Source: Streptacidiphilus sp. P02-A3a (lineage in GTDB: Bacteria > Actinomycetota > Actinomycetes > Streptomycetales > Streptomycetaceae). From it: 64,000 nt of DNA. Numbering within the stretch: position 1 is the first letter of the stretch; the number at the start of each line of letters is the position of its first letter. The DNA is taken from positions 310,001 through 374,000 of the forward strand of contig NZ_CP048289.1 of assembly GCF_014084105.1 (NCBI RefSeq), written 5' to 3'. Positions 38,288-61,073 of the stretch are shown here, in pieces. The position numbers and the translations under genes were made by a program. The notes below the pieces were generated by a model that was given only the letters and a program-made list of their open reading frames with translations, searched no databases and had not been told where the DNA came from.

Positions 38288-38299
38288 GCGCTTCTCCAA

Positions 38300-38865: not shown

Positions 38866-40142
38866 TCGACTTCTATTGGTTCATGCCTCTCCCGCTGCGC
38901 ACGATCGACCCGTCACGACTGGTGGCTCGGCGTGTCGAGCTGGGACTCACGCGCGCGGCGCTGGCCGCAAGGGCTGGGGTCTCGCCCAGGATGATCTTCT
39001 TCTACGAAGAGGGCAGGCACACCCCTACGCCGCCTCGCCTGGAGCAGTTGGCGGCTGCTCTTGGGTGTGAGGCGGATGCGCTTACCGGGGCGCCGCGTGG
39101 ACAGGAGTCGCTGGTCGATCTGAGGTACGCCGCCGGACTGACTCTTGACCGAGTCGCCGAGCTGCTGCGTGCTTCGTCGGCGGGGCGGGAGCTATGTGTC
39201 TCAGCGCCCAAGATCTCTGCGCTTGAGAACGGACGGCAGGTCAGGGGACGCCACTGGGAGGACCCTGAGGCGACCGGTCGCCTGCTCACCCCTCTGGCCA
39301 AGGCATACGGCGTGCCTGTGCGCATGGTGCTGGACGCGTGGATGCGCACGCGAGTGGACGAGCCCGCACCGGTGCTTGCGGACAGGCGGAAGCGGGAGCC
39401 TTCCCGGGCAGCCCAGGCGACATGGGAGTCTTTGAACGAGCGTCAGCAGGTCTATCTGGGCGAGATCATGCGGGACGACCGTATGACGGCGACGGAGATG
39501 TGGATGAGGAGGGTCCAGCGCCTGGCTGTGCCGCGGGCGGCCGAGTGGCGCAAGCTGCCGTTGACGCTCAAGGCTGGGCCTTCCGCGGTCGGGTACACCC
39601 GGCTTCAGGAGCGGCTTCGTCAGCGCGGAGTGCATGATCCCGGTGCCGGGCAGACGGTGCACGCGTTGGAGCGGCGCGGGTTGCTGGTGATCACCGAGGA
39701 CACGGTCGAGCATCCCGTTGGCGGGGAGGTCGGGCGAGTGCTGGTCGAGATCACCAAGCGTGGCCGCGCGGCGGCTAGGGCCGGACTCGGTGAAGCGAGC
39801 GAACCTGAACCTGGGGCGCACTTGCTCTCGGAGTGGCTCTGGGGGGTCCTGTCCCGCGTCGCAGCTGCCGAACCCACCGGGCTGGACGACGACCGACTGG
39901 CGGGCCGTTCGCTCTTCTTTATCGGCGTGGGCTATGCGGGCAAGCCGGGGGGGCAGCCGAGCCGCGGCCTGGTGGACTCTGTTCCGGTCCTGGCACCTGG
40001 AGGGACACACGTCGCCGAGTACCGATGGCGGCTGACCCAGCTCGGCCGGCGCCACGTAGTGGAATACCTTGACGTCTACCGAGAACTCTATCCGCGCACT
40101 AATACCACAGGCCTCGACGGGCTCATGGGTGGAACGCGGTAG
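38853..40142 (+). CDS. Double-HTH (XRE) regulator with winged C-terminal part, PIWI-RE island
   Basis: A 429-aa protein (or 419 aa from ATG 38883). The first XRE HTH is at residues about 20-75 (LVARRVELGLTRAALAARAGVSPRMIFFYEEGRHTPTPPRLEQLAAALG). The second, longer one is at about 85-155 (LTLDRVAELLRAS, SAPKISALENGRQVRGRHWEDPEATGRLLTPLAKAYGVPVRMVLDAW). The C-terminal 200 residues look like one or two winged helices (PSAVGYTRLQERLRQRGV, VHALERRGLLVITEDTVEH). It lies 61 bp upstream of the REase gene on the same strand and is probably its controller. No SD is seen; it may be leaderless. Confidence 0.8.
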   Translation: MKSSFDFYWFMPLPLRTIDPSRLVARRVELGLTRAALAARAGVSPRMIFFYEEGRHTPTPPRLEQLAAALGCEADALTGAPRGQESLVDLRYAAGLTLDRVAELLRASSAGRELCVSAPKISALENGRQVRGRHWEDPEATGRLLTPLAKAYGVPVRMVLDAWMRTRVDEPAPVLADRRKREPSRAAQATWESLNERQQVYLGEIMRDDRMTATEMWMRRVQRLAVPRAAEWRKLPLTLKAGPSAVGYTRLQERLRQRGVHDPGAGQTVHALERRGLLVITEDTVEHPVGGEVGRVLVEITKRGRAAARAGLGEASEPEPGAHLLSEWLWGVLSRVAAAEPTGLDDDRLAGRSLFFIGVGYAGKPGGQPSRGLVDSVPVLAPGGTHVAEYRWRLTQLGRRHVVEYLDVYRELYPRTNTTGLDGLMGGTR

Positions 40143-40203
40143 AGACGTCCCCTTTCTGCTCAACCGGCCCGATTGTCAGAGGTGCCATTTATGCTCCAGA
40201 GTT

Positions 40204-41448
40204 GTGACAAGTCCCACGGACGAAAACACGCAGACGCTCGATGAGGTCAGGGTCCGCTATCTGGTGACCCGGGCTGCTCTGCGCGCGGCGAAGGCTATGA
40301 CTACGCCAGCGCTGGAACCCCAGCAGCGCCTGGTGACCTTGATGGAGTGCCACGGCACGATGCTGGCGGCTCGCGGCCCTGGTCGCCCTCTGGCGTTCGG
40401 AGAGTTCCGGCGCGCGCTCAGGGGCGACCTGGCCGACTTGCTGCCGGAAGGCGTCAGTTCCCTGGACCTGGAAGGGATCCTGGTTGTGGACCAGGACGGA
40501 CAGGTCACCGAGGATGCCTTCGACTTCGACCTCGAGCAGCAGATGCTGTTGCACACGATGCGCAAACTGGACGCCATAGCGGGCGTTGTCAGCGATCGGG
40601 AACTCCAGTCGGAGATCGACCAGGAGACGGCCTACGCCCTGCTGCGCAAGCAGGGTGACCAAGTCGTTTACGAGGCTGGGCGGAAGGACCTGATCCGACT
40701 TCCCGCTGGTCCGGTTGACGACCTCTGTGAGCTGAAGCTGCCTCCGTTGGTGGCGGACTTCTACAGGGATATCTCGTACGACTCGGTCTACCGGGGGTGG
40801 TGGTTCCCGTGCCCGATCTGTCGTTGGCCGATGCGGATCGTCGTCCGGAAGAACGCGGTCACCCCCGTGGGAGCGGCGCGATGCTGGTACGCGCCGCATG
40901 CGGACCTGGGAGCCTCCTACCTGTTCCGCCTACCGGCGGACTTCAGTGCACCCGAACTGCTGCCCGAACCGTCGCCGCCGCGCCCGGATGGTCGCGAGGC
41001 GGTCCTGTATCCGGAGGTCAGGGAAGTGCCGCAAGCGCTGCTCGCCGAGGGCCACAAGGCCCTCACCCGCGGAATCTGGCGCTACACGACCGTTCCCGGC
41101 CTGCCCGAGCTGGCACTGTACGAACGGCTCGCCGAGCGGGGGCTGAAGGTGACGTTGTGGCCGGGGTTGGACGCCTACGACCTCCTGGTCGAGGTGGGCC
41201 CCAAGCGGGGGAAGAAGACGCCCTTCAAGGTCGACATCAAGGACTACACGTCGGCAGTGACGCTGGCGAACCTCGTCCATGCGCAGGAGGGCGACCGAGG
41301 CGGTGCCGACTGGCTGGTGGTGCCGGACTACCGGGCCCGCCAGGTGCCACTGCTGTCGGGTGTGTGCGCGAAGTACAACATGCAGGTGGCCACCGCATCC
41401 GAGTTCGGCGAAATGGTCTGCGAGAAGGCAGGGGTGAGCTGGACATGA
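40204..41448 (+). CDS. REase-fold protein of the PIWI-RE three-gene island
   Basis: A 414-aa protein. A helical N-terminal domain leads to a central Cys motif (WWFPCPICRWPMRIVVRKNA, then ARCWYAPHA). The C-terminal restriction-endonuclease fold has GLDAYDLLVEVG (D326) and FKVDIKDYTSAV with D344 and K346 as the D-x-K core of a PD-(D/E)XK site, then DWLVVPDYRARQ. In PIWI-RE islands the three genes are an REase, a DinG-type helicase and the PIWI-RE protein, in this order. GTG 40204 is the chosen start. It overlaps the helicase by 4 nt. Confidence 0.88.
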   Translation: MTSPTDENTQTLDEVRVRYLVTRAALRAAKAMTTPALEPQQRLVTLMECHGTMLAARGPGRPLAFGEFRRALRGDLADLLPEGVSSLDLEGILVVDQDGQVTEDAFDFDLEQQMLLHTMRKLDAIAGVVSDRELQSEIDQETAYALLRKQGDQVVYEAGRKDLIRLPAGPVDDLCELKLPPLVADFYRDISYDSVYRGWWFPCPICRWPMRIVVRKNAVTPVGAARCWYAPHADLGASYLFRLPADFSAPELLPEPSPPRPDGREAVLYPEVREVPQALLAEGHKALTRGIWRYTTVPGLPELALYERLAERGLKVTLWPGLDAYDLLVEVGPKRGKKTPFKVDIKDYTSAVTLANLVHAQEGDRGGADWLVVPDYRARQVPLLSGVCAKYNMQVATASEFGEMVCEKAGVSWT

Positions 41449-44400
41449 GCGACATGCCGATCGGGGACACCGCAGTCTGTACGGCGCTGGCGCTCGCAGC
41501 CCACTACTTCCCCATGGCTGTAGAGGGTGATTCCCGCAGTGCTGCCCCGTTCGCCAAGGCGGCGTTCCTGGTCTCGGGGAAGTACCAGGCCTGGGACCGG
41601 TGGGCAGATCTGCCCCACGAGGAGAAACAGCGGATCGCGATGGTCTGCTCCATCGCTCCCGGCGAACTCGCTGACGTTCGGACGTTCTCGGTTGCGGCGC
41701 GCTCCATGCTGACACCGCTGGGCGCCGACGAATCGAGTGACTCGTCGGTCATGGCTTCGTTCGAGCCGGTGGGCGACAACCCCTTCACAGCGCAGGCCGC
41801 ATTCCCCCGGCTCGGGGGCGATCCGCTGGGCTACGTCGACCGTATGACGACCCGCTTCCGGCGTCCTAGTGCCCGCGCCCGGCCTCCTGAGTTCGCGGGG
41901 CCGGGAACGTGGTTCACCGGGGAGATCTTCGTGAAGGACGTGGGCCAGGTCCATGGACGACTAGTGATCCCCACCTATCCCCAGTTCACCGAGGCGCTCA
42001 GCCTCGACAGCCTCCCCCAGGTGTCGACCGTCCCGTATCTGCCCGACCTTCGGATCCCCACGCCCGAGCTGCTGGACCTGGCAGAGAAGATCGACATGCG
42101 GTACCCGGCGGCGAAGCGCTACCTGCGGCACACCCTCGGGCAGCTCTTCGACGTACTGCAGACCTCGGACACGGTGTCTCCGAGCGACCTGCTGACGCTG
42201 ACCTCCGGCGGCATGGAGATCTTCAATGCGCCGACCGGCACCGGCAAAAGCGTCCTGGTCCGCGTCATGGCCGCGTGGTTCGCCGCCAACAACCTGCGCA
42301 TCGCCATCGTGCTGCCGGACATCAAGGCATGCCTGGCCATGACCTGGAACGTGCGCGGGGATCTTGCCCACCTGCACCGCGTCAAGGCCATCGAGCACGA
42401 GCCCACCTGCGCGCACCTGATGTCCGCCTCGGGGATGCATGACCGCGCGCTCAAGCTCGTCTCCCTGATCAACGAGGATCCTGACGCACCAGGTGAGTGG
42501 GGTGAGCGAGCCGAGCGCGATGTGGATCCCCTGGCGTACGGCTGCGCCCAGAAGACGTTCCTCGAAGCCACCGGCGACTATCCGCCGGGGCGCGAGCCGT
42601 GCCTGTCGCTGCACCGACAGGGTGTGGGCTCGGCGGCCTGCCCCTGGATCCCCACATGTGGGAAGTTCGCCCCGGTCTACGAGGCGGCTGCCGCCAGCGT
42701 CGTCATCATGAACCACTACGTGTTCATGCAGGGCAACCTGCGGATCGGTGTCAACCTGGACGGTCGGCCCGTACGCAGCATGACCGCTGCCGAATACGCG
42801 CTGCGGGCCTTCCACGCGGTGGCCATCGACGAAGTCGACCAGTTCCAGTCCCGAGCCATCGACAAGTGCGCCAGCGAGATCGTCCTGCACTCACGGCGCC
42901 ATTGGTCTGCTGCGCCTCAGGAGATGGACAGCGACGCGAAGCGGCTGCGTATCGACGATGAGCACAACCTGCTGCCGGCCGTCAGTCATGCCCGGCTCAT
43001 GGCCGAGTTCCTCTTGTTGAGCATCTGCAAGAGCGCCCTGAGCCTGCACGCCACGGAGGACGATCGGGCCCAGGCCCGCATCCCCGACCAAACCAGCAGT
43101 CGCTGGCACCTGGCACGCGGCCGGGACCGCACTTTGATCCGTTCGTTGTGGCCGGAAGCGGACTCGATGGACGGTGCCGACATCCCAGTCGAGCTGTTCC
43201 AGCGACTCAACGCTCTTATGCCCGCGCGGTACCAGCGCCGCGACCCGCTCACCGGACAGGCAAGCCTGCTCGAACCGGACTGGCACGAGGTGAGGAACGC
43301 GCTCAGCGCACTCGTGGCACCCCGCGGCGAACATCTGCTGGACGCGGTCAAGCTCGAACTTCACGGCCTCCTCGAAGGCACCGTCAAGGACCCGCACCGG
43401 CGCGCTCAGGCGATCAACCTGCTGATCACCCGAACCGCGATGGTCGAACTGGACGAGGCACTGTCAGCCCTTCAGGAGAAGGCCCACGACTACCGCTCCT
43501 CCGGCCTGCGTTCAGCCCAGAAGATCGCGTCGAACCTGCAGGCCACAGCTGTCTCGTCGGTCCTTCCCTTGGGGATGCTCGGGCGCGCAATCACGGGCTA
43601 CCGCGTCACCGGACTCGACGACAAGGAGAGGAACGCTGCCCTGGTCGCCCAGACCATCACCGGCGACCCGCACACCTTCACCGCCGAACTGGGCGGAATC
43701 GTCTCCCTGATCCTGGCAGGCGTTGAGCGACCGGTGATAGGTCTGTCGGCCACCGCCTACTTCCCCCAGGCGGTACGCGAGCACCTTCACGCCCCAGTGC
43801 GCTGGTGGATGACCGACGCCCAGGCCAAGTCCATCCGGGCCAGGAAGCACCGCATCGACTACGGCGAGGGCCACCCACTGTTCGGGGAGCCCATCAAGGT
43901 CTCCGGCACCCATCCCAGCCGCAAGAAGGACGCGCTCATCGAACTGGGCAGCAACCTGTACGACCAGTACATCCACCGCGAGCTCGAACGCACGGCGGCG
44001 AAAGACCCCGACCGGGCACACGTCCTGGTCGTGGCCAACTCCTACGAGCAGTGCGCCTGGCTCGCCCGCGGTATCGCCAGGGCCGGACGCTACGACGGCG
44101 GGCTGTGCCTGGCCGTCCGTGCCGAGGACCGGCACAGCGTCGACTCTGAGCTGCCCAGGGAGAACGTGGCCGTACGCCTGACTGCGGAGGAGTTCGAGGA
44201 CTTCCCGCAGTACGGGAAGATCCTGGTCGTTCCCCTGTCGCTCATCGCCCGGGGGCTCAACATCGTCGTGGGCACCCGTTCGGCGGTCCGATCGGTCTAC
44301 CTGTGCGTACGCCCTCTCGCGCTACTCAACGAACCCGCCGAGATGTACGGCAGCATCAACGCCGCCGGCCTGCGAGCCCTGCCGCCAGGCGGAAGCCCCG

Positions 44401-44759
44401 ACCCGTCGCAGAGCTTGACCGAGGCCCGGGAGGCGGCCTGGGACCGCCTGGCGCTCCTGCTGCGCACAGCCCCCCAGTTCACGGCGATGCACAAGTCGCT
44501 TCAGGAGGAGGTCGTCGCAGGCATGATCGTCGACCTCATCCAGCTCGCCGGCCGCGCCCGTCGCGGCGGCACAGAAGCCGTGCTGCACATGGTGGACTAC
44601 GCCTTTCACGAGGACACCTGGAGCGCCGACCTGGAGACAGTCCTGCGCCGTATCCACTCTCAGTGGACCCCCGAGGTGCGGCAGCAGATGAACCGCCTGT
44701 ATGGGGAGGCCCTCAACGCCTTCCTCTCTTACGCAGGCATCGAGCCCGACGAGCCCTGA
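41445..44759 (+). CDS. DinG-type helicase of the PIWI-RE island
   Basis: A 1104-aa superfamily 2 helicase. An N-terminal region of about 245 residues (perhaps the island-specific accessory domain) precedes Walker A FNAPTGTGKSVLV (residues about 262-274). A Cys-rich segment between motifs (CLSLHRQGVGSAACPWIPTCG) recalls the Fe-S or zinc region of DinG/XPD helicases. The DEAH-like box is VAIDEVDQFQS. Motif VI is LIQLAGRARRGG near the C-terminus. ATG 41445 overlaps the REase stop. It should unwind DNA or R-loops for the PIWI-RE/REase pair. The exact polarity and target are unknown. Confidence 0.9.
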   Translation: MSDMPIGDTAVCTALALAAHYFPMAVEGDSRSAAPFAKAAFLVSGKYQAWDRWADLPHEEKQRIAMVCSIAPGELADVRTFSVAARSMLTPLGADESSDSSVMASFEPVGDNPFTAQAAFPRLGGDPLGYVDRMTTRFRRPSARARPPEFAGPGTWFTGEIFVKDVGQVHGRLVIPTYPQFTEALSLDSLPQVSTVPYLPDLRIPTPELLDLAEKIDMRYPAAKRYLRHTLGQLFDVLQTSDTVSPSDLLTLTSGGMEIFNAPTGTGKSVLVRVMAAWFAANNLRIAIVLPDIKACLAMTWNVRGDLAHLHRVKAIEHEPTCAHLMSASGMHDRALKLVSLINEDPDAPGEWGERAERDVDPLAYGCAQKTFLEATGDYPPGREPCLSLHRQGVGSAACPWIPTCGKFAPVYEAAAASVVIMNHYVFMQGNLRIGVNLDGRPVRSMTAAEYALRAFHAVAIDEVDQFQSRAIDKCASEIVLHSRRHWSAAPQEMDSDAKRLRIDDEHNLLPAVSHARLMAEFLLLSICKSALSLHATEDDRAQARIPDQTSSRWHLARGRDRTLIRSLWPEADSMDGADIPVELFQRLNALMPARYQRRDPLTGQASLLEPDWHEVRNALSALVAPRGEHLLDAVKLELHGLLEGTVKDPHRRAQAINLLITRTAMVELDEALSALQEKAHDYRSSGLRSAQKIASNLQATAVSSVLPLGMLGRAITGYRVTGLDDKERNAALVAQTITGDPHTFTAELGGIVSLILAGVERPVIGLSATAYFPQAVREHLHAPVRWWMTDAQAKSIRARKHRIDYGEGHPLFGEPIKVSGTHPSRKKDALIELGSNLYDQYIHRELERTAAKDPDRAHVLVVANSYEQCAWLARGIARAGRYDGGLCLAVRAEDRHSVDSELPRENVAVRLTAEEFEDFPQYGKILVVPLSLIARGLNIVVGTRSAVRSVYLCVRPLALLNEPAEMYGSINAAGLRALPPGGSPDPSQSLTEAREAAWDRLALLLRTAPQFTAMHKSLQEEVVAGMIVDLIQLAGRARRGGTEAVLHMVDYAFHEDTWSADLETVLRRIHSQWTPEVRQQMNRLYGEALNAFLSYAGIEPDEP

Positions 44760-44799
44760 GTCCCGAGCAACCGGCCAGAAGCGAAGAGAAAGAGGACGC

Positions 44800-47634
44800 A
44801 TGACCCAGCAGGACCGCGAACCCGGCAAGTACCTGAACACGCTCGCCTTCCGCTGCACCCCCGAGCTGGTCGGCGATGCCGCGGTCCACGTGCGGCACCT
44901 CGACGAGGCCACCTGGAAGCTCTGGGACGACTTCGATGGGCAGTGCAAGAAGAAGTTCAAGAACGACGCGGCCCAGGCGCCGTACTCCATCGCCACCACC
45001 GTGCTCGGGATGCTCAGCGGGGGCTACGTCTACTTCGACCCGGACCGCCGCGCGCCATTCCTCGCCTCGCTTCACCCTCTCGACAGCAAGCTGCTCTGCC
45101 GCGTCTTCACCCTGACGTATTGGCTGGCTCTGGGCCAGGAGGTCGGCACCATCGACCTCGCGGTTCCACCGGAACTGGCCAAGCGCATTGCCGACACAAC
45201 GGAGCACAGGTACCTTCTGGCCGAGTGTCTTGAGCCCACTGCCAACGCTCAGCCCGTTGCTCCCAACTGGCTCTACCGGACAGTATCCTGGCAACTCTCC
45301 CGACACCTCGCGGCAACGCCTTGGGCCATCGGGGACGGCAAGACCGTCAAGCTGCGGCCCGACACCACGGGCGGCTTGGTCGCCTTCGACAATCCCTGGC
45401 AGAACGAGCAGGGGGGACGCTTCGCGCTCTCTCGCACTTCGCTGAAGCTCAAGACCCTGCCGAATGTTTCCAGCCCTGTGCTGTTGTTGGACTCCCGGGT
45501 GAGCCGCATCTCCTCCTCGCTGGTCTTCTCCACCACCGCCCTCGCCGAGCACCCCGGCGAAAACCGCCCCCTTCTGGAGGTCAGCCTCAACGGCTTCGGA
45601 GGTGCCCGCACCGTCAACCGCTTGGCCCTTGCGGCCCTTGGCCGGCTGGAAATGGACTACTCCATCCTCCGCACCATCGACGACCGGTCCAAGCGAGAGC
45701 AGAAGCTGCTCGCCGAAGCGAAGAAGGCGAAGGAAAGCGCCTCCTTCCCCCGTGACCACCCCGGTCAGGTCTGGCCCATCCTGGGCAAGAACTTCTCGTT
45801 CCCCATTGGCACCGGCCCTGGCATGGAGCACCTCAGGCTTCTGCACCAGCACTTCACCACGGTGTTCGACACAACCGCCGAGCCGCTGGAGACGCGAGAA
45901 GTACGCATGAACCTCCCGCACCGGCCGACCGACCCAGAGAACATCTCCAAGCAAGAATACGACCGCCGGAAGGCGGAGCGTGTGGAGCATCCCGAGCCGA
46001 AGAAGCTGGGTCCGATCCGCCCGCGCGGCAGCCTGTTCCCCACCGCAGAGTCACTCTTCGCGTCCGTCGAGGCTGCGGGCTTCAAGAAGCTGCGTATTGC
46101 CTGCCTTTGGTACCGGGATGAGACCCGCCTTCGCATGATCGATACGTTCTGCAAGACCTTCGGCCTCTCCCCCGAGGGCTTGGACCCGCACGAGGGCGAA
46201 GAGTTCAGCCTCCACGGCGACCAGATCACCGCCGTGTTCCACCAGGCCGCAGAGTTCCTCAAGCCCGGAGGGCCGGACGGTCGGAGGAACGCGCTGGCAG
46301 ACACGGGGGCGGCGCTACGTTCCCAGGACGGGATCATCGTCGGCGCTTGGTGCGAGACTGAGATTCCCACCACCGCTGACTTTGAGGGGGCCACCAAGGC
46401 AGACCTCGACAACCTCGACGCCAAGCCCCAGAGCAAGCACATCCTCGCGGAACTCGGTGTCCCCACCCAATACGTTCGGGGTATGACTGCGACTGGTGTC
46501 CTCAGGCCCAAGGCCAAGGACCACCCCGCGCAGATGGCTCTTCTCGACCTCTACCGCTCGCTCGGCATCATCGATGACCGCATCGCCAACGCGCTCCGGC
46601 CAGAGAAAGCAGGCTATCCGGTAGACCGGATCGCACACGTCGGTATCCACATCCGGCAGCAGAACCGCCGCAAGGGTGAGTATGGCCAGCCCAAGGTGGT
46701 CATCACCGCATCTGCTCTGGTTCCGCCGCAAGCGGCCGACAGCACTTGGACCATGCTCGGCTGGAGTTCCACCCGGCCTGAGTGGCAGCCCTATCGCTCC
46801 GCCCAGCCGGCATTCCATGCCAGCGCCTATCCGGAGGGAACCGGCGATAAGAAGACCTACCGGCAGCGCTGGGACGACGCGGCAGAGACCGTGGAGGGTG
46901 CCCTTGCTGATCTCGCCGATGAACTGGACGGCACCCCGTACGTCATCACTGTGGACGAGCTCGCCTCGCGGCGGCTGTGGGACGGATTGCAGAACATGCG
47001 GCAGGGCGGCGCGCCGGCAGACGGCGGAAGCCGCTACTGGCTCCCCGGCGCCACTCTGAGCCGCGACGACCGGCCCCAAGCCATCATCCGCATCAACACC
47101 GACGACGAGGAGGTGCCGCAGCCAGTGAGCACCGCTCGTATCGCCAAGGCCAAGGCGGGCGAGCCGGTCGAGGGGGACACCGCGACCACGCTCTACCAGG
47201 TCACCACTGACTTCGGCACGCCGGTGTGGATCCTCCCCAACGTCCCGCGGGCCTTCGACGGGAGCGGGTCGGACCGACTGGGTTCGAAGTACACGCGCTG
47301 GGAGGCCAAGGCTTCGGTCTTCGCCGAGAAGAAGGAAGACCGGCGGAAAGGGGAGATGCCGCAGAACTGGTACGCCATGACAGCTAACGAGATCTATCCG
47401 CTCGCCTGCGCCGCCGGAGTATCCGAGGAGGCCCTTGCCATCACCACGGCGAAGCTCTGCCACCAGAGCCAGTTCTGGGACGGCCGCTCCCGCTTCCCAG
47501 TCCCCCTGCACGCCGCCAAGCAGATGGACCTCGACCACCCGCAGTACCGACGCACCATCGCGCCGGAGGAGACGCCGACCGTGGAGCCCGGCGTGGAAGA
47601 GGAGACCATCGAGGAAGTCGGGCCGCAGAAATAG
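44800..47634 (+). CDS. PIWI-RE family protein (prokaryotic Piwi with RNase H-like domain)
   Basis: A 944-aa protein. The N-terminal 350 residues fit the X-type domain of PIWI-RE proteins, a MID-like region follows (about 420-560), and the RNase H-like PIWI domain covers about 600-920 (AHVGIHIRQQNRRKGEYGQPKVV, TPYVITVDELASRRLWDGLQNM, TPVWILPNVPRAFDGSGSDRLGSKYTRWEAK, PQNWYAMTANEIYPLACAAG). The first RNase H strand reads GIHIRQ, with His (617) where active Piwi has Asp, so its catalytic state is doubtful. The gene closes the REase-DinG-PIWI-RE operon, has GAGG before ATG 44800 and ends 6 nt before a strong hairpin. Confidence 0.9.
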   Translation: MTQQDREPGKYLNTLAFRCTPELVGDAAVHVRHLDEATWKLWDDFDGQCKKKFKNDAAQAPYSIATTVLGMLSGGYVYFDPDRRAPFLASLHPLDSKLLCRVFTLTYWLALGQEVGTIDLAVPPELAKRIADTTEHRYLLAECLEPTANAQPVAPNWLYRTVSWQLSRHLAATPWAIGDGKTVKLRPDTTGGLVAFDNPWQNEQGGRFALSRTSLKLKTLPNVSSPVLLLDSRVSRISSSLVFSTTALAEHPGENRPLLEVSLNGFGGARTVNRLALAALGRLEMDYSILRTIDDRSKREQKLLAEAKKAKESASFPRDHPGQVWPILGKNFSFPIGTGPGMEHLRLLHQHFTTVFDTTAEPLETREVRMNLPHRPTDPENISKQEYDRRKAERVEHPEPKKLGPIRPRGSLFPTAESLFASVEAAGFKKLRIACLWYRDETRLRMIDTFCKTFGLSPEGLDPHEGEEFSLHGDQITAVFHQAAEFLKPGGPDGRRNALADTGAALRSQDGIIVGAWCETEIPTTADFEGATKADLDNLDAKPQSKHILAELGVPTQYVRGMTATGVLRPKAKDHPAQMALLDLYRSLGIIDDRIANALRPEKAGYPVDRIAHVGIHIRQQNRRKGEYGQPKVVITASALVPPQAADSTWTMLGWSSTRPEWQPYRSAQPAFHASAYPEGTGDKKTYRQRWDDAAETVEGALADLADELDGTPYVITVDELASRRLWDGLQNMRQGGAPADGGSRYWLPGATLSRDDRPQAIIRINTDDEEVPQPVSTARIAKAKAGEPVEGDTATTLYQVTTDFGTPVWILPNVPRAFDGSGSDRLGSKYTRWEAKASVFAEKKEDRRKGEMPQNWYAMTANEIYPLACAAGVSEEALAITTAKLCHQSQFWDGRSRFPVPLHAAKQMDLDHPQYRRTIAPEETPTVEPGVEEETIEEVGPQK

Positions 47635-47639
47635 TGAGT

Positions 47640-47679
47640 GGTTGTGGGCGGTGCTGGGTGCCCAGCACCGCCCACAACC
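47640..47679 (+). terminator. 19-bp perfect hairpin after the PIWI-RE gene
   Basis: 47640-47658 and 47661-47679 pair without mismatch around 2 nt (effective tetraloop). No T tract follows, as usual in Streptomyces. It closes the island transcript and also faces the remnant gene on the other strand. Confidence 0.85.
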
Positions 47680-47734
47680 AGTCGTTCAACGTTGCCCCGG
47701 CAATGGCCGCAGGATCCGGGTCTTCGCCTGTTCT

Positions 47735-48670: not shown

Positions 48671-50668
48671 GTGACAGGGATCGCGAAGACAGTTCAGATG
48701 TCTACTGAACTCAGGAAGCCGCTCACAGCGCTGATCAACAGGAGCTGCGTACCCGTCGGTGGCATCTTCCGACTCGACTACGACTCCGCCGTTGTCCTGA
48801 CTGATGACTTCAAGAAGCACGAGGCTGGTGGCGTACCACGTGGCGGCTTCCTGCTCGCGGTCGCTGGGGACAACACCGAAGTCGGGTTTGTCCTGGAAGA
48901 TCAGGAGATCATCCTCCTTCGCGTTCGCGGGACTGCGCCGCTCCCCAACGAGTCGGAACTGATCCAGACTCGCCTTGCCGTTGTCCGAGATGCTGGCGCT
49001 TCGGGCGTCGGCTTCGATGACGTCACCGACGTCCTCACCCGCAACGAGCTCCAACAGTCTGCCTTCGATTGTGAGGTTCTCGGGACCTTCTACACGGAGA
49101 CAGATGCTCGCGACGCTCGGGTTGAGTATGGTGCGGATATCGACAACGTCGTCGTTTCCGCGCGATACCAGGTATTTCTGCCATCGACAGATGTGCTGTC
49201 TTGGCTCGCTTCCTACCCGGCGCCCTTGGAAGCTCAGGACGCACTTGTTATTGGCAAGGTCAGGTTCGCTGCGACTCGCCGTAAGGCGTTGATCGCGGGC
49301 ACCGACCAGGCTGACGTTCGAATTGATGTGTCGGATTTCATTGGTCGGAAGACTGCCGTTTTCGGCATGACCAGGACGGGTAAATCCAACACAATCAAGA
49401 CGCTTGTTACTGCCGTACACCGATATGGCTCAGAGCATCAGCGTTCGATCGGGCAACTGGTCTTCGATCCTCAGGGCGAGTATGCCAACGTCAACCGCCA
49501 GGATGGCACCGGCCTACGTCTGCTCGGCGATGACGACGGCGCCGTGCGGATCTACAAGGTTGATCCTGACCTGTCCGACGCGCGAGAGAAGACCTTGCGC
49601 ATCAACTTCTACGACCGTGACGTACTCGATGCCGCGTGGAGTCTAGTTAGCGATGCGGCCGCTTCGGTCAACACGAACTATGCCAAGAGCTTTCGCGCTG
49701 CAGACTTCACTGAGCCTGATCGCAAAGACTACAGCGCCCATAATCGTTGGGGCTGGGCTCTCGTTGCCTTCTATGGCCTCCTCGCAAAATGCGGGTTCGA
49801 GGCCACCAGTTTCGCGCCACTCCGAATAGCTCTAGCCGAAGCCAACGCAACACCATTCCTTACCGCACACCCAGGTGCAATCATGCCCGCTGGCAAGGGC
49901 TACTATTCGGTGGGCTCCTCGGGTGACGCGCTAGCGCTCGCGACATGGGCCGGTGGGCACGCGGATACCTTCCCTAAGTGGCACGATGAAAACAGTCGAT
50001 TCCCGGATATATTCAACGTGTACAACTATACCGGCGTGACTTCAGCTATTCGCACAATCCGCGCCTTTCATGGGCCACAGTCAACTGGAGATGTCGCTGA
50101 TCTCCTATGGAAGGACATGCTCGCTGGCCGGCTGTCCATTGTTGATCTATCGAGCGGAAATGATCTTGTAGCGAAAGTCATGTCGGAGAGGATTGTTACT
50201 CACCTCCTCAATTGTGCCAGCGAGCGATTCCGATCGGACGCTGATCCAGTGGCGATGCAGGTCGTTGTCGAAGAGGCGCACAACCTGTTTGAGCGCGGTG
50301 GTCGAGAGGTTGCTGACGACCCCTGGGTTCGGCTGTCGAAAGAGGCCGCCAAGTATCGAATGGGTCTTATCTACGCCACTCAGGAGGTGACATCAGTTGA
50401 TAAGCGAATCCTCTCGAACACTTCAAACTGGCTGATTGCACATCTGAATTCCGATAATGAGACCCGAGAGCTGGCCCACTACTATGACTTCAAGGTCTGG
50501 GTGCCGAGCATTCTGCGCGCTGAGGACGTTGGATTTGTTCGCATGAAGACCTATTCAGGCAAGTATATCGTTCCTGTGCAGATCGCCAAATTTGATCATT
50601 CGATGGTCAATGAAGCACGCAAGGCTGCTGGTCTCGCAGCTGTTGACTTCACAGACGGCGGCGAGTGA
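48671..50668 (+). CDS. HerA-like (FtsK-HerA) hexameric DNA translocase
   Basis: A 665-aa ATPase of the HerA/DUF87 group. A beta-rich HAS-barrel-type N-terminal region leads to Walker A GMTRTGKSNTIK (K238). IGQLVFDPQGEYAN follows, then Walker B QVVVEEAHNLF (about 530-540) and RLSKEAAKYRMGLIYATQEVTSVDKRILSNTSNWLIAHLNS with the Arg finger region. GTG 48671 has GGAG 6 nt upstream. HerA pumps DNA into its partner nuclease NurA, which is encoded 3 nt downstream. GC is lower than in the surrounding genes, a sign of transfer. Confidence 0.92.
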   Translation: MTGIAKTVQMSTELRKPLTALINRSCVPVGGIFRLDYDSAVVLTDDFKKHEAGGVPRGGFLLAVAGDNTEVGFVLEDQEIILLRVRGTAPLPNESELIQTRLAVVRDAGASGVGFDDVTDVLTRNELQQSAFDCEVLGTFYTETDARDARVEYGADIDNVVVSARYQVFLPSTDVLSWLASYPAPLEAQDALVIGKVRFAATRRKALIAGTDQADVRIDVSDFIGRKTAVFGMTRTGKSNTIKTLVTAVHRYGSEHQRSIGQLVFDPQGEYANVNRQDGTGLRLLGDDDGAVRIYKVDPDLSDAREKTLRINFYDRDVLDAAWSLVSDAAASVNTNYAKSFRAADFTEPDRKDYSAHNRWGWALVAFYGLLAKCGFEATSFAPLRIALAEANATPFLTAHPGAIMPAGKGYYSVGSSGDALALATWAGGHADTFPKWHDENSRFPDIFNVYNYTGVTSAIRTIRAFHGPQSTGDVADLLWKDMLAGRLSIVDLSSGNDLVAKVMSERIVTHLLNCASERFRSDADPVAMQVVVEEAHNLFERGGREVADDPWVRLSKEAAKYRMGLIYATQEVTSVDKRILSNTSNWLIAHLNSDNETRELAHYYDFKVWVPSILRAEDVGFVRMKTYSGKYIVPVQIAKFDHSMVNEARKAAGLAAVDFTDGGE

Positions 50669-50671
50669 GTC

Positions 50672-52081
50672 ATGCCATATGCCGGAGAGAAGGCATCCCG
50701 CCTTGGTCACGTCGATACCGTCCGAAATGAGGCGGTCAAGGATGCACTTCAGCGCTGGGAAATTACGAACTCCAAGCCCAGTAGCAGGGAGGAAATCGAC
50801 GGGCTGTGTCGGTCGCTGAATGACCTACCCATTGCTGGCGATCATCAAGAAGTTGACTTCTCGATCACGGTAGACGGATCCGACACAGAAGTTGAGGCGA
50901 CGCGCGAGCATCCGACCGTCAAGGTGGGGTATTTGAGGGTTGCTGGTTCGATGGTTCAACTCGATGTCTTTCGTCGCCTGGCGCACGTTCGGTATATCGA
51001 CCCGCGCGATGTTCGCCAGTCACAGACAGAGTACGCCTTCGACGTCGCGCTGCCAGGTTCTGGACTTGCCCTGCCAGGTATGACCGGGGTCGATACTTGG
51101 AGAAGTGAACTCGATTCCTTCCTTTTGAGCTCGAGATTCGACTCGAGCACAACTATGACCCTGGCCGACGGACTCCTGGCGCTGCACGGTAAGCGCGCTA
51201 GCCCGGCGACGCAGATTGCGCTTCGTGTTTGCCCAGGCTGTGGGATAAAAGCGTCAGGTTCGATTGCCATATCTGTTGGCATAATTGGTGGAACTTGCCC
51301 ATCCTGCGACGAACGACTCTACTTGGCCGATGTACTCCGAACCCATGAGGAGTATAACGTCGAGGGTTCGAATTTTACGCCTATGGGCCGGGTCATGACC
51401 GCTGCCGAGCGCCTGATGTCTCTGTGTTACCTTAACTTCTTCGCAGACACTGCACCCGAGGTTCTTCGACACACGATTTTCATCACCGATGGTCCTCTCG
51501 CAATGTTCGGTCCACTTGCACCGCTTAAGCGGCGATTCCAGGAGCACTTGAGCGACCTGAGCGGTTGGTGCGGAGATCGGGGCTTGGTGGGACCTCTGGT
51601 TGTTGGTATCGAGAAGTCTGGTGCTTTTGTTGAGCATGCGGAGCAGATCAGGGACCTGATACCTGTCGGCCATGTGATGCGCCTGACCAATAGCTATATC
51701 AATCGAATCTCAGGTCGATCGGTAGATAATCACTATGGTGTCGACGAATTCTATGGCCGACGGTTCATCTATCGCACCAGTTCAGGGGATCCTCTGGTCA
51801 TCACCGTTCTCCCAGCCGCTGGGGTCGCCCCCTATGGCGGCACTGAGGAGAGCGAGGGGTGGGAGGCATACCCAACACTTCGTCTGATTTGCGAGGTGCT
51901 CGACTCATTGCGGACCCGCATGTATCAACACGCCGTCGTTCCAGTGGCTCTCGCGCACTCGGCGGCAGCGCTTCCACTCGGCGTCGGACGCTCGGTCCTG
52001 ACTATGATGGCCCAGCAGAACATCTCCGGGCTGAAGCTGGACATCCAGGCGGTGCGGCCACCGACGTATTTTAAGAGGTAG
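50672..52081 (+). CDS. NurA-domain nuclease
   Basis: A 469-aa protein. The C-terminal part has the NurA signature: HTIFITDGPLAMFGPLAPLKRRFQEHLSDL (D273 is the first metal ligand), VGIEKSGAFVEHAEQI, and GRRFIYRTSSGDPLVITVLP. Before it are two CxxC pairs (RVCPGCGIKASG and GGTCPSCDERLYL) forming a zinc ribbon, which is not usual in archaeal NurA. NurA is a Mn-dependent 5'-3' exo/endonuclease regulated by HerA. It starts 3 nt after the HerA stop. Confidence 0.85.
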   Translation: MPYAGEKASRLGHVDTVRNEAVKDALQRWEITNSKPSSREEIDGLCRSLNDLPIAGDHQEVDFSITVDGSDTEVEATREHPTVKVGYLRVAGSMVQLDVFRRLAHVRYIDPRDVRQSQTEYAFDVALPGSGLALPGMTGVDTWRSELDSFLLSSRFDSSTTMTLADGLLALHGKRASPATQIALRVCPGCGIKASGSIAISVGIIGGTCPSCDERLYLADVLRTHEEYNVEGSNFTPMGRVMTAAERLMSLCYLNFFADTAPEVLRHTIFITDGPLAMFGPLAPLKRRFQEHLSDLSGWCGDRGLVGPLVVGIEKSGAFVEHAEQIRDLIPVGHVMRLTNSYINRISGRSVDNHYGVDEFYGRRFIYRTSSGDPLVITVLPAAGVAPYGGTEESEGWEAYPTLRLICEVLDSLRTRMYQHAVVPVALAHSAAALPLGVGRSVLTMMAQQNISGLKLDIQAVRPPTYFKR

Positions 52082-52126
52082 ACGGATCATGTATCGCGGG
52101 CCTTCCCCGTCCGGCAAGATACGATC

Positions 52127-53359
52127 ATGCCTCCCCTGACCCCACCCGCCACGACGACCGTAACTATGGAGCTCGCCCGTCTTGCTGAGCTCCTGGGCAC
52201 TGGCGATGCAATAGACAGCCAGGCAAGGCCACTTTCCAGTGACTTGATGGCCATCTCGCACGAACTGGCGCACGGCCGCTACCAGTCACCCCTTCGCTAT
52301 CCCGGTGCCAAGTCGTCACTCGCCCCTGTGATCGCACGAGTCATCACGTCAGCGAAGCAGTCGAGCGTGGTTCCCGAGATCAACCTGCTCGTGGAGCCGT
52401 TCGCCGGCGGCGCTTCGGCATCCCTGCGCATGGTCGGCGAGGGTGTGGTCGACCGGATTTTGCTGGCGGACGCTGATCCACTTGTGACCGCCTTCTGGCA
52501 GACCGCAGCTGAAGACACAGAACGTCTAGTGGATCGAATGTACGATGAGTGGAAGCGTTTTGTGCGTGAAGGCGGAGCCACGGCTGTAGGCCGGTGGGAC
52601 TATTGGCAAAGCTGGACGCCTCCGGTTAACATGACGGCACGGAATCGCCGTTTGGGGGCTGCCATTAAGTGCCTATTCCTTAACCGAACGACCTTTTCTG
52701 GAATTTTGCATGGAAAAGCAGGTCCTATCGGCGGCAGGGCGCAGGCGAGCAAGTACCCAATTGGATGCCGCTGGAACCCGGAGGCAATCGCTGAACGTCT
52801 CCGATACGTTGGTCACCTCTATGACGTTGGGCGCATTGTAGATGTGTGGCGTAAGGACTGGCGCCAGACTCTCGATGATGTGCCTGAGTACTATCCGCAC
52901 CTCCTTCCCTCTCGGGTGGTTGCCTACCTGGATCCTCCATATGTTGAGAAATCATCACTTCTCTATCGAACTTCGTTTGACCCGCGAGGTGGTTATGGCG
53001 GCGACGGACTTGGTGCTTCTCGCCCTGCCGATGACTCGCTTCATCTTAGCCTTGCCGATTACCTGCGCACCAAGGCGCAATTCAGATGGTTGCTCAGCTA
53101 CGACAATCACCCGATGCTAACTCAAAGCACGTGGCTTTATGCACATGATCGCATGAATCCGTCGGTGCTCGACCGCGAGGTTCTCGGTGTGCGCAGCTGG
53201 CGAATCAGTAAGCGCCTAGTAACCACACGCTACACAGCGGCAGGTCGTGTTGGTAAGAGATCGGCTGACGAACTTCTGATCACAACTCTTCCGCCGGCCA
53301 CCATTCCGACTGATTCCCAACTGCGCTCTTTTGACGGGTTTGATGCGACTAGTTTGTGA
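52127..53359 (+). CDS. Dam-type (D12 class) N6-adenine DNA methyltransferase
   Basis: A 410-aa methyltransferase. N-terminal RYPGAKSSLAPVIARVI is the class-typical start motif (RYPGGKSRL). SAM motif I is LVEPFAGGASASL (residues 88-100), and catalytic motif IV is YLDPPY (267-272). FRWLLSYDNHP lies after it. It is 45 nt downstream of nurA on the same strand, so it is the third gene of the operon. It could protect host DNA from the HerA-NurA nuclease. The target sequence is unknown. Confidence 0.93.
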   Translation: MPPLTPPATTTVTMELARLAELLGTGDAIDSQARPLSSDLMAISHELAHGRYQSPLRYPGAKSSLAPVIARVITSAKQSSVVPEINLLVEPFAGGASASLRMVGEGVVDRILLADADPLVTAFWQTAAEDTERLVDRMYDEWKRFVREGGATAVGRWDYWQSWTPPVNMTARNRRLGAAIKCLFLNRTTFSGILHGKAGPIGGRAQASKYPIGCRWNPEAIAERLRYVGHLYDVGRIVDVWRKDWRQTLDDVPEYYPHLLPSRVVAYLDPPYVEKSSLLYRTSFDPRGGYGGDGLGASRPADDSLHLSLADYLRTKAQFRWLLSYDNHPMLTQSTWLYAHDRMNPSVLDREVLGVRSWRISKRLVTTRYTAAGRVGKRSADELLITTLPPATIPTDSQLRSFDGFDATSL

Positions 53360-57823: not shown

Positions 57824-58279
57824 ATGTCACGGGAGACGACGATGGGCTCGGGGGTGGTGATCACCTATGCCTCTGTATGCCAGCACTTCCTGGACCCACC
57901 GAGCTTTCGCTGTCAGCTGGCGGTCGGTCTGAGCGCCGCGCCGACTGCACGAAGCCTGTTGCGGGAGCGGCTCACTGGATACGTGCCACCGGACACACTC
58001 GCGGACGCTGATTTGGTGCTCACGGAGCTGATCGCCAACGCTGTCAATGCCTCCCCGGTCTCGGCATTGGTCGGGCTGCTCGTCCACCTCGTCGAACCGA
58101 GCCTGCTGATCAGCGTGTTCGACGAGTCCACCGGTGCGCCCCGCCCGAGGTGTCCTGACCCGCTGGAGCTGGATGAGGGCGGTCGCGGACTGCTCTTGGT
58201 CGCGGAGTTGTCGCAGACATGGGGATGGCATGCGATTGCTACCGGCAAGGTCGTCTGGGCGGTGCTCTCTCTACTGTGA
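57824..58279 (+). CDS. HATPase_c ATP-binding protein (anti-sigma/RsbW-like)
   Basis: A 151-aa GHKL-type ATP-binding protein. The N box is [20 protein letters not shown], followed by the D box [12 protein letters not shown] and the G box [34 protein letters not shown]. It is the single-domain type that Streptomyces has in large numbers, often acting as an anti-sigma or anti-anti-sigma partner kinase. GAGGAG precedes ATG 57824. It is 148 bp from valS, and no direct partner is visible. Confidence 0.9.
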
Positions 58280-58427
58280 GCCAACTGGAACTGTCCGTCT
58301 GCCATTTGCTCGTGGCATACATACCTATTACCCCTTTTGCCCGGTTGATCTGTCTGCCTGCGGGCCGAATACGCGGAGCGACGTCGAGATCACGGCGCGC
58401 GCAGGCGTGGGTAGCGAGCGCCGTAGA

Positions 58428-61073
58428 ATGACGGCTGTGACCGACAACACTCAGAAGCACCCCGCCTCCGGCCCGGAACGAGGCGGCATTGACCTGCCCA
58501 CCCAGTACGCGCCGACCGAGGTAGAGGGGAAGCTCTATGAGAGTTGGGTAGAACGCGGCTACTTCGAGGCCGACGCAGGGAGCGAGAAGCCCCCGTACGT
58601 CGTGGTCATCCCACCGCCTAACGTCACCGGATCCCTGCACCTGGGCCATGCCTTCGAGCACACGCTGATCGACGCGCTCACCCGCCGCAAGCGCATGCAG
58701 GGATTCGAGACCCTGTGGCAGCCCGGCATGGACCACGCCGGCATCGCCACCCAGAACGTCGTCGAGCGGGAGCTGGCGAAGGAGGGGAAGTCGCGTCACG
58801 ACCTGGGCCGGGAGGCATTCGTCGAGCGCGTCTGGCAGTGGAAGGCGGAGTCCGGTGGCCAGATCGCCGGCCAGATGCGACGCCTGGGTGACGGTGTGGC
58901 CTGGAACCGGGACCGCTTCACCATGGACGAGGGTCTCTCTGCCGCCGTCCAGACCATCTTCAAGAAGCTCTACGACGACGAGCTCATCTACCGGGCCGAG
59001 CGGATCATCAACTGGTGCCCGCGCTGCCTGACGGCCATCTCCGACATCGAGGTGGACTACCAGGAAGACGACGGAGAGCTCGTCTCCATCCGCTACGGCG
59101 ACGGCGAGGAGTCCGCGGTCGTGGCCACCACCCGTGCCGAGACCCTGCTCGGGGACACCGCCGTCGCAGTCCACCCGGACGACGAGCGTTACGCCGGTCT
59201 CATCGGCAAGCAGATCAGGCTGCCGCTAACCGACCGCAGCATCCCCGTAGTCGCCGACGAGCACGTCGACCCGCAGTTCGGAACCGGGGCAGTGAAGGTC
59301 ACTCCGGCCCACGACCCCAACGACTTCGCGATCGGCCAACGCCACGACCTGCCGATGCTCTCGGTCCTGGACGAGCGTGGTGTCATCACCGCTCACGGCC
59401 CTTTCGAGGGCCTGGACCGTTTTGAGGCCCGCTCCGCGATTGTGGCCGCGTTGCGCGCCGACGGCCGTATCGTCGCGGAGAAGCGCCCCTACGTGCACTC
59501 CGTCGGCCACTGCTCGCGCTGCAAGACCACGCTGGAGCCGCGACTGTCCATGCAGTGGTGGGTCAAGGTGGAGCCGCTGGCCAAGGCCGCCGGTGACGCG
59601 GTGCGCGACGGAAGCGTCAGCATCCACCCGCGGGAGATGGAGAAGCGGTACTTCGACTGGGTCGACAACCTCCACGACTGGTGCATCTCGCGCCAGCTCT
59701 GGTGGGGACACCGGATTCCGGTCTGGTACGGGCCGCAGGGCGAGACCGTCTGCGTGGGCCCCGGTGAGGAGCCGCCCACGGGCGAGGGCTGGACCCAGGA
59801 CACCGACGTGCTCGACACCTGGTTCTCCTCCGGGCTGTGGCCGTTCTCCACCATGGGCTGGCCCGAGACGACCGAGGACCTCAGCCGGTTTTACCCGAAC
59901 TCGGTCCTGGTCACCGGGTACGACCTGCTGTTCTTCTGGATCGCTCGGATGATGATGTTCGGCCTGTACGCCATGGACGGGCAGCCGCCGTTCCGCGAGA
60001 TCGTCCTGCACGGGATGGTCCGCGACGAGCACGGCAAGAAGATGTCGAAGTCGTTCGGCAACACAGTCAATCCGCTGGACTGGATGGATAAGTACGGCTC
60101 GGACGCGGTGCGCTTCACCCTCGCCAAGGGCGCCAACCCAGGCACCGACGTCCCCATCGGCGAGGACTGGGTCCAGGCATCCCGCAACTTCGCCAACAAG
60201 ATCTGGAACGCGACGCGGTTCGCGCTCATGAACGGCGCGACGACCGAGGGCGACATGCCGTCCCCCGACCGCCTGTCGGCAACCGACCGTTGGATCCTGT
60301 CCCGGCTGAACACGGTCCTCGCCGAGACCGACGCCTTCTACGACGACTACCAGTTCGCGAAGCTCTCCGACGTCCTCTACCACTTCGCCTGGGACGAGGT
60401 CTTCGACTGGTACGTGGAGCTCTCCAAGACCGCCTTCTTCGCCGGCGGCGACCAGGCCGCAGTCTCCGGCCGGGTGCTGGGCGAGGTCCTGGACGTGACA
60501 CTCCGCCTGCTGCACCCGATCATGCCGTTCGTCACCGAGACCCTGTGGACCACGCTGACGGGAGGGGAGTCTGTCGTCATCGCGGACTGGCCGATCGACA
60601 GCGGATTCCGCGACCTGGCCGCCGAGCAGGAGATCGCCGTCCTGCAACAGGTGATCACCGAGGTCCGCCGCTTCCGTGCCGACCAGGGCCTCCAGCCCGC
60701 CCAGAAGGTCCCCGCCCAGCTCGACCTGGCCGGCACGGCCCTGGCTCCGCACGAGGCCGCCATTCGACAGTTGCTGCGACTGCTGCCGCCCGGCGATGTG
60801 TTCAGTGCCACCGCCACGCTCCCGGTCGCGGGCGCCACAGTGGCCCTGGACCTGTCCGGCGTCATCGACCTCGACGCAGAGCGCCGACGCCTCACCAAGG
60901 ACCTCACGGCTGCGGAGAGCGAGAAGCGTCAGGCGCTGGCGAAGCTCGGCAATGAGGCGTTCCTCGCCAAGGCCCCCGACGCAGTGGTGGACAAGATCCG
61001 AGGCCGCCTGGCCAAGGCCGAGCAGGACATCACGCGTCTGCAGGGACAACTGGAGAACCTCCCGCCGGCGTAG
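58428..61073 (+). CDS. valS: Valyl-tRNA synthetase
   Basis: An 881-aa class I aminoacyl-tRNA synthetase that attaches valine to tRNA-Val in the cytosol. The HIGH-type motif is [19 protein letters not shown] (HLGH 71-74), the editing domain includes [22 protein letters not shown], and the KMSKS loop is [10 protein letters not shown] (538-542). A C-terminal coiled-coil tRNA-binding arm ends the protein ([47 protein letters not shown]). The ATG at 58428 is chosen; GTG 58437 is an alternative. It is a normal full-length chromosomal gene followed by two hairpins. Confidence 0.98.

Follow-up and report, generated by a model that had tools for sequence, protein, structure and literature searches.

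TdpABC is a phosphorothioate-based defence system of thermophiles, in which a modification gene accompanies the TdpAB pair. The structures 8wet, 8wfd and 8y1k are taken here to be those of TdpABC, and tdpC to be a phosphorothioation gene of the PAPS-reductase family. The three-gene locus of Streptacidiphilus sp. P02-A3a analyzed here resembles this system in two components, as TdpA was the best solved match of the profile of its HerA-type motor and TdpB the best fold match predicted for its nuclease. By contrast, the third gene of the locus and its relatives encodes a D12 or beta-class DNA methyltransferase (MTase) instead of a protein of the TdpC kind, and the nuclease exceeds the TdpB chain by 94 aa and contains a zinc ribbon. 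Because the nearest solved relatives are TdpA and TdpB, a known system already joins such a motor and nuclease to a self-mark, albeit a different one.

A comparable gene set has been described in Thermus, where, according to the accessible part of the report, an ICETh1 operon encodes the type IIG enzyme TthHB27I, a NurA-like protein, the HerA/FtsK-like protein TdtA and a pfam01555 methylase. There, tdtA mutants lost DNA donation, nurA-like mutants were down by 4–5 orders of magnitude and the methylase had only a minor effect. By that description, a NurA-like protein, a HerA/FtsK motor and a DNA methylase in one operon of a mobile element are shared with the present locus, whereas the type IIG enzyme, the shorter NurA-like protein (377 aa), the pfam01555 family of the methylase and the donation phenotype set ICETh1 apart; no type IIG gene was found among 19 scanned ORFs of the window, that is, the whole stretch of 64,000 nucleotides under analysis. 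The original prediction knew of no named system with this exact gene set; a similar set, plus the type IIG enzyme, is thus in print.

HerA–NurA of archaea and Deinococcus are described, in the excerpts available, as end-resection repair pairs; they match the present HerA more weakly, and none of the Pfam-NurA ORFs examined had a zinc-ribbon pair. According to the accessible text of a 2026 study that doubted a repair role for HerA–NurA (PMC12977600), a complex of six HerA and two NurA subunits from T. kodakarensis digests dsDNA exonucleolytically, from ends and independently of end structure, and may serve antiviral defence. In SIR2-HerA (Nezha) and HerA-DUF4297, a HerA ring likewise joins a partner effector in phage defence, although the effector is SIR2 or DUF4297 and the components listed in a review table include no modification enzyme. 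The motor of DndFGH (DndH) or 'HerA/FtsK capture' has been proposed to pump invader DNA into a nuclease, but with other nucleases and a multi-domain architecture, and the accessible part of that paper does not mention NurA.

Organization of the locus

The three genes lie on the forward strand of the window and encode a TdpA-like DNA translocase of the HerA/FtsK superfamily (665 aa, 48671..50668), recognized by Pfam DUF87 and a profile match to TdpA, a NurA/TdpB-like nuclease with a predicted RNase H-like fold (469 aa, 50672..52081) and a D12 (Dam-like) DNA adenine MTase (410 aa, 52127..53359), identified by Pfam MethyltransfD12, PADLOC and its DPPY motif. Gene herA starts with GTG at 48671, preceded by GGGGAG, and the nuclease ORF begins 3 nt past its stop. 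Both the presence of the trio and the three names given in the original prediction (HerA, NurA and a Dam-type MTase) were confirmed, that of NurA through the predicted fold. The trio also lies, as predicted, in low-GC DNA: its GC content was 57–58% and its GC3 0.59–0.63, versus 0.75–0.88 in five other window genes measured. The right edge of a variable region was placed at 54247, from where the window aligned at 89–92% to the single comparator, a genome of the same genus (G013); window DNA to the left did not align to the 14 kb fetched from G013. Gene order was identical in nine of nine near relatives, one of them cut within nurA, and comparison with three relatives gave dN values of 0.10–0.17 with dS above 2 or undefined. 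Low dN relative to dS and the conserved gene order argue that the trio is more than a chance arrangement. Scans for promoter-like (3 found versus 2.1, s.d. 1.5, in shuffles) and terminator-like signals (2 versus 5.0) showed no excess.

Several affiliations of the locus were rejected. A PIWI-RE island is indeed its neighbour, as originally noted, but is separate from the trio, on the evidence of a terminal inverted repeat, a different codon composition and the lack of DinG/pPIWI matches in nine near relatives, seven of which were covered for some 8 kb upstream of herA. The repeat (47636..47683; 23 bp, 2-nt spacing), just past the pPIWI-RE stop (47634) and outside the HerA–NurA–MTase system, is possibly the end of the neighbouring transcription unit; it was not among the results of a terminator scan requiring a T run. 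PglZ, BrxC and PglX were absent from 19 window ORFs searched with Pfam and 10 searched with PADLOC, so that of the original proposal of a restriction-modification (R-M) or BREX-like unit the latter part fell; the former stood, as a conserved R-M-like unit. SIR2-HerA and HerA-DUF4297 have the wrong effector, the partner here being NurA/TdpB-like. Phosphorothioation supplied from elsewhere in the genome was discarded as well: the trio is at 359–363 kb and the PAPS-reductase-family matches of the genome are at 457 kb and 2.40 Mb, the nearer of them among large ORFs unlike a dnd cluster, as judged by eye only.

Motor and nuclease

HerA matched Pfam DUF87/HerA (E = 3.7e-14). In an alignment of 14 sequences, residues G232, M233, T234, R235, G237, K238 and S239 of the Walker A motif GMTRTGKSN were invariant (GMTRTGKS, residues 232–239, 49364..49387, forward strand), including the predicted K238, and so were EEAH (534–537) and YATQEV (568–573). 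With its central ATPase domain, Walker A, EEAH and conserved catalytic core, the protein belongs to the HerA/FtsK superfamily. A profile of 14 homologues compared with solved chains matched TdpA best (8wet_A, E = 1.4e-29), 50 bits ahead of all other solved matches (runner-up, 1.6e-14). Repair-type HerA proteins scored more weakly: 4d2i, which we take to be the S. solfataricus HerA structure, gave 4e-14 and T. kodakarensis HerA 3e-8.

Pfam, NCBIfam and PADLOC all gave no match for the nuclease itself. The Pfam NurA profile (PF09376) matched neither the window protein nor anything in its own genome, a Nostoc relative scored 21.0 bits, at the cut-off, and profile–profile comparison (hhalign) with Pfam-NurA ORFs was not significant. 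Hence, the link to NurA is drawn from the predicted fold, which is NurA/TdpB-like and RNase H-like, with TdpB as the best match. An initial AlphaFold model was of low quality (pLDDT 47.6), and a BFVD search returned no match at E ≤ 0.001. The predicted addition of a CxxC/CxxC zinc ribbon (residues 187–212, 51230..51307, forward strand) was borne out by cysteine conservation: C187, C190, C209 and C212 were invariant in 14 aligned sequences, and in a wider alignment of 20 three of them were invariant and C187 was conserved in at least 90%. Each Pfam-NurA ORF used for comparison (n = 20) contained 0–1 CxxC, and therefore no such pair. No PADLOC-DB 2.0.0 model matched the nuclease at E ≤ 0.01, so PADLOC probably misses loci of this kind.

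Conservation and distribution of the three-gene unit

In 28 of 33 HerA+NurA loci the MTase profile matched no more than 300 bp from the pair, the association of MTase with nuclease expected of R-M; without the loci found by the MTase query (L040–L043), the proportion was 24 of 29. The genes are thus not mostly apart, and the MTase was located on either side of HerA–NurA. The 33-locus count leaves out L039 and L015, which duplicate L011 and L007, as well as L028 and L065, which have NurA without HerA. Four further loci (L014, L046, L047 and L092, with L046 and L047 near-identical) have the MTase too, on contigs that end before HerA or NurA is reached, and the weak matches G058 (E = 7.6e-4) and G348 (4.6e-4) showed no trio. 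Across 26 loci, L039 being kept in this comparison, no fourth gene family occupied a constant place, the one exception being three close loci that share an ORF upstream of herA; no specificity or target-recognition subunit was recognized in the unit. In two Nostocales plasmid loci (L003 and L004), no MTase accompanied HerA–NurA over 5.9 kb of upstream and 8 kb of downstream sequence, an AbiTii gene follows the pair in one Nostocales plasmid, and in L093 there was just a Dam-like gene 2.2 kb away. The matches listed also include a Tolypothrix plasmid, the third from Nostocales, and another Vibrio phage. Taken as a whole, the neighbourhoods support one conserved R-M-like unit.

The trio is a mobile, patchily occurring unit of bacteria, archaea and phages. 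Within the family, the MTase query matched 9 of 394 genomes, seven of which held the trio, and the NurA query, own genome included, matched 9 of 150 relatives and 9 of 396 genomes of the phylum. In a temperate Vibrio phage the trio adjoins the phage integrase, and it is found in other viral contigs. Flanks of four of five relatives scanned contained type I or III MTases, FtsK/SpoIIIE-family genes or a transposase, and FtsK/SpoIIIE-family genes lie 4–5 kb off in L006 and L007. All that a Halorubrum megaplasmid retains is an N-terminal piece of HerA next to a transposase.

Methyltransferases of the unit

The MTase matched Pfam MethyltransfD12 (E = 4.1e-10) and contains YLDPPY at residues 267–272, of which the catalytic motif DPPY (269–272, 52931..52942, forward strand) was invariant across 12 sequences; profile and motif identify it as a D12 N6-adenine MTase. 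Its best PADLOC match was PD-Lambda-5_B (7.9e-48), a component of what the accessible text describes as a compacted prophage RM+Abi system; the A model of that system, by contrast, was unmatched by HerA or the nuclease. Speaking for the unit, D12 MTases are uncommon in related genomes: one scored above the cut-off in only 8 of 61, at the trio in five of the eight, although a full HerA–NurA pair was present in only 6 of the 61. Speaking against it, the MTase families extend more widely than the unit. D12 relatives were found on 43 plasmid records, none of the 40 listed being one of the six HerA plasmids. Three viral relatives (L048–L050) and two plasmid beta-class relatives occur without HerA–NurA, as does a relative in G433 (38% identity, with stops inside the match).

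Identities of HerA and NurA correlated at 0.956 over 153 pairs, and those of either with the MTase at 0.38–0.40. HerA and NurA co-evolve, and more than one MTase class occupies the slot, which in Halorarius, Deferribacter, G103 and G580 holds beta-class N6/N4 enzymes. In all 150 A-B-C triplets, which are not independent of each other, group A was closer to B by HerA and NurA, and closer to C by MTase. The HerA+NurA tree rejected an A+C grouping (AU p = 4e-9), and the MTase tree gave p = 0.023 against A+B, or 0.073 with other outgroups; it did not reject group A (p = 0.178) or group C (0.097) as a single clade. Outgroup-rooted trees covered 15 of 18 loci, with three group A rows omitted. Support for MTase swapping was therefore weaker than hoped.

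Discussion

Gene identities and intact motifs, together with the conserved three-gene unit, make it probable that the trio is an R-M-like defence unit in which HerA–NurA destroys DNA lacking the MTase mark; the original prediction is thereby partly supported. We infer complex formation, DNA degradation, its blocking by methylation and defence. One machine would be built from HerA, which probably forms a hexameric ring, and the nuclease, which probably sits on that ring as a dimer; like the solved HerA–NurA complexes, it would load on dsDNA, feed the DNA to the nuclease and so break it down. The MTase would mark host DNA and the mark would halt the machine on self DNA, so that unmarked phage or plasmid DNA would be destroyed: in short, a Tdp-like system with base methylation in place of phosphorothioate as the mark. 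HerA–NurA without an MTase, as in L003 and L004, would then be expected to damage its host, barring protection by some other MTase. A more tentative extension, to which we give rather less than even chances, is that the destroying half reads no sequence and that a TdpAB-like motor-nuclease stalls at methylated bases anywhere, so that a window-type D12, a canonical Dam-type D12 or a beta-class N6/N4 enzyme, indeed any MTase, could be plugged in. TdpABC would presumably be a machine of this kind in which TdpC supplies phosphorothioate marks.

A variant overlapping this explanation, somewhat unlikely in our judgement, would have HerA–NurA attack free ends, such as those of linear phage DNA, and be halted at methylated sites. 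It is favoured by the reported digestion from ends whatever their structure (accessible text of PMC12977600), by the lack of a recognized site-recognition subunit and by the varying MTase class. Such a degrader may be likened to Chi modulating RecBCD, and would not need site-specific cutting. That the MTase is instead an anti-restriction or regulatory gene of a mobile element, and HerA–NurA a modification-independent effector triggered by infection, agrees with the Nostocales plasmids, one with AbiTii next to the pair; with an MTase in 28 of 33 loci, on either side of HerA–NurA, this is improbable.

Functions outside defence were considered as well. HerA might pump chromosomal DNA out for export or conjugal donation, with NurA trimming it and the MTase protecting or labelling it, a role already suggested for some of the ICETh1 operon. 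That operon, in its accessible description, serves donation, and FtsK/SpoIIIE-family genes lie near L006 and L007. However, integrase, relaxase and type IIG genes were absent among 19 window ORFs (Pfam), donating host DNA would be of little use to the temperate Vibrio phage and other viral contigs that carry the trio, and the minor role described for the ICETh1 methylase contrasts with the frequency of the MTase here; export is thus hardly likely. Resection of chromosome ends in DNA repair, with the MTase as a passenger or strand label, would follow the description of archaeal and Deinococcus pairs, and has equally little probability given the patchy distribution, the absence of the low-GC region at the matching place of G013, homes on plasmids and phages, partner MTases of different classes and the greater closeness of both HerA and nuclease to TdpAB than to repair HerA–NurA.

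Discussion of HerA–NurA has for years centred on repair in thermophiles. If true, an R-M-like role of the trio would place HerA–NurA in immunity and carry the Tdp principle over from sulphur in the DNA backbone to methylated bases. With homes in soil bacteria, on a plasmid of a haloarchaeon and in a temperate phage, the compact mobile trio would be a simple test system, and may show a form of restriction where the machine reads the mark and not the sequence.

The gene trio and its surroundings

Three plus-strand genes (48671-53359) encode a motor, a NurA-like protein and a methyltransferase (MTase). The first (48671-50668) specifies a HerA/FtsK-superfamily ATPase (Pfam DUF87) with GMTRTGKSN at residues 232-240, bearing out the HerA DNA pump with a Walker A motif of the original prediction, and the third (52127-53359) is a D12 methyltransferase with motifs EPFAGG and YLDPPY, in agreement with the proposed adenine methyltransferase. 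The NurA-like gene between them (50672-52081) starts 3 nt past the HerA stop; its product, described earlier as NurA with a zinc ribbon, has the four ribbon cysteines and a DGS motif (residues 68-70), although no Pfam, NCBIfam or PADLOC model matches the protein itself. GC3 was 0.59-0.63 in all trio genes versus 0.81-0.85 in the adjoining pPIWI-RE genes, as expected of lower-GC DNA beside a PIWI-RE island. Against three relatives, dN was 0.10-0.17 in the trio genes and dS either exceeded 2 or was undefined, pointing to purifying selection across the trio.

The pPIWI-RE operon (40069-47634) comprises pPIWI_RE_REase (6e-28), a DinG-type helicase (PADLOC PprDinG) and the pPIWI-RE protein. Beside this island, a minus-strand gene in lower-GC DNA (37397-38299) fuses a nucleoside 2-deoxyribosyltransferase-like domain to an MTES_1575/DUF559 REase domain and is possibly a further defence gene. 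A second valyl-tRNA synthetase gene (valS, 58134-61073) is possibly a resistance or duplicate copy; another copy, 76% identical, lies at C1:1697854 of the same genome, and the same-genus genome G013 likewise has two and carries about 1.2 kb (L108 18212-19395) that window 58288-58360 lacks, shortly after the start of the valS copy.

Conservation and mobile context

Conservation of the three-gene order, anticipated by the original prediction, was observed: HerA-NurA-MTase in 9/9 relatives in one scan of genome contigs (one, L014, cut inside NurA), and MTase-HerA-NurA in three genomes of another family. Across 26 loci, one a duplicate, the three gene families kept a constant place; beyond them, three close loci shared an ORF upstream of HerA, and four loci had a regulator-like gene whose position varied. 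In a final tally with profiles of HerA, NurA, D12 and beta-class MTases on 39 loci, HerA and NurA were both present in 33; in 28 of these an MTase (D12 in 24, beta-class in 4) matched no more than 300 bp from the pair. L040-L043, four of those 28, came from an MTase query and thus could not have been MTase-free; excluding them, the count was 24/29, so that the genes are not found mostly apart. The five remaining loci were two Nostocales plasmids (L003 and L004), L093, with a Dam-like gene 2.2 kb off, and two cut contigs (L064 and L090). Contigs were cut before HerA or NurA in L014, L046, L047 and L092, yet the MTase was seen, and L028 and L065 had NurA without HerA.

Counting the own genome, NurA matches occurred in 9/150 relatives and 9/396 genomes of the phylum. 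The MTase matched in 9/394 family genomes; seven matches were at least 57% identical, all adjoined by HerA-NurA. Among 61 related genomes, D12 exceeded the cut-off in eight: 5/6 with a full HerA-NurA pair versus 3/55 others, the sixth full-pair genome (G103) having a beta-class MTase. G013, the sole genome of the genus whose copy of the nearby valS is 94% identical, lacks the DNA left of window 54247 at the corresponding position. The loci include a haloarchaeal plasmid, a Deferribacter megaplasmid whose HerA is disrupted by an IS, viral contigs and a Vibrio phage with the trio genes between an integrase and an excisionase/repressor-type region; a second Vibrio phage, H16, was among the matches listed. 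In the Vibrio phage locus L066 (1309-3502), HerA appears as two overlapping ORFs, the first carrying Walker A and the second EEAH, representing split subunits, a frameshift or a sequencing error. When the two larger flanking ORFs were scanned in each of five relatives, a type III MTase and a transposase (L012), a type I MTase (L013) and FtsK/SpoIIIE-family genes (L006 and L007) were found, and nothing recognisable in L009.

The methyltransferase slot

Over 18 actinobacterial loci (153 pairs), HerA and NurA identities correlated at 0.956, and either with the MTase at only 0.38-0.40. Identity to group A of these loci was 33-38% (HerA), 31-34% (NurA) and 52-68% (MTase) for group C, and 45-51%, 39-47% and 43-47% for group B; L026 and L041 shared 67-68% with the window in the MTase, 36-37% in HerA and 31% in NurA. 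Rooted HerA+NurA trees rejected an A+C grouping (p=4e-9). Since MTase trees rejected A+B only at p=0.023 or 0.073, depending on the outgroup, MTase exchange between groups is suggested by these comparisons, not proven. Independently of the tree tests, canonical Dam-type D12 genes (5e-43, 2.5e-41) and beta-class N6/N4 genes fill the slot beside more distant HerA-NurA pairs, which is use of another enzyme type. The MTase families are broader than the trio: viral and plasmid relatives without HerA-NurA exist, and D12 relatives occur on 43 plasmid records, none of the 40 listed being any of the six HerA plasmids. In L044 (5842-8084), from a genome of the same family, a D12 relative adjoins a 449-aa gene matching no Pfam family, without HerA-NurA.

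Relation to TdpAB and proposed mechanism

Of all chains with solved structures, TdpA was the top match (106 bits, E=1.4e-29) to a profile of 14 HerAs; further HerA-domain proteins, presumably SIR2-HerA and S. solfataricus HerA among them, scored about 55-57 bits, and the HerA of T. kodakarensis 36 bits. The motor half and, by predicted fold, the nuclease half each independently point to TdpAB. TdpAB reportedly degrades phage DNA lacking phosphorothioate, and sulphur on self DNA is said to block its movement. TdpABC and the trio are alike in motor and nuclease; the trio differs in its proposed methyl mark, and filing it as TdpABC was ruled out because the TdpC feature, when tested for, was not found.

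Against a reading in which methylation marks self and HerA-NurA destroys unmarked DNA, L003 and L004 keep HerA-NurA without an adjoining MTase, none being found within 5.9 kb before the pair or 8 kb after it. An XRE-type regulator precedes the pair in both, and an AbiTii gene follows it in L004. Also against it, the Thermus ICETh1 operon, like the trio in having a NurA-like protein, a HerA/FtsK-superfamily motor (TdtA) and a methylase, differs in its IIG enzyme and is reported to be needed for DNA donation, the methylase having only a minor effect. For HerA-NurA itself, PMC12977600 describes a T. kodakarensis complex of six HerA and two NurA that digests double-stranded DNA, its authors doubting end resection and suggesting antiviral defence.

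Within the open literature, no title, abstract opening or passage covered names a HerA-NurA-methyltransferase defence system, and no PADLOC-DB 2.0.0 model matched the nuclease from the window, L002 or L004; most subscription papers, among them those on TdpABC and the FtsK-HerA survey of 2004, fell outside that scope, so an earlier description is possible. The trio is filed as a candidate motor-nuclease of Tdp-like type that would use a methyl mark. On the simplest reading, it would be a TdpAB-like machine for which base methylation serves as the mark. Since HerA-NurA persists through changes of MTase type, the proposed restriction half probably has no fixed site of its own; that half may instead read the mark, or act together with the MTase.
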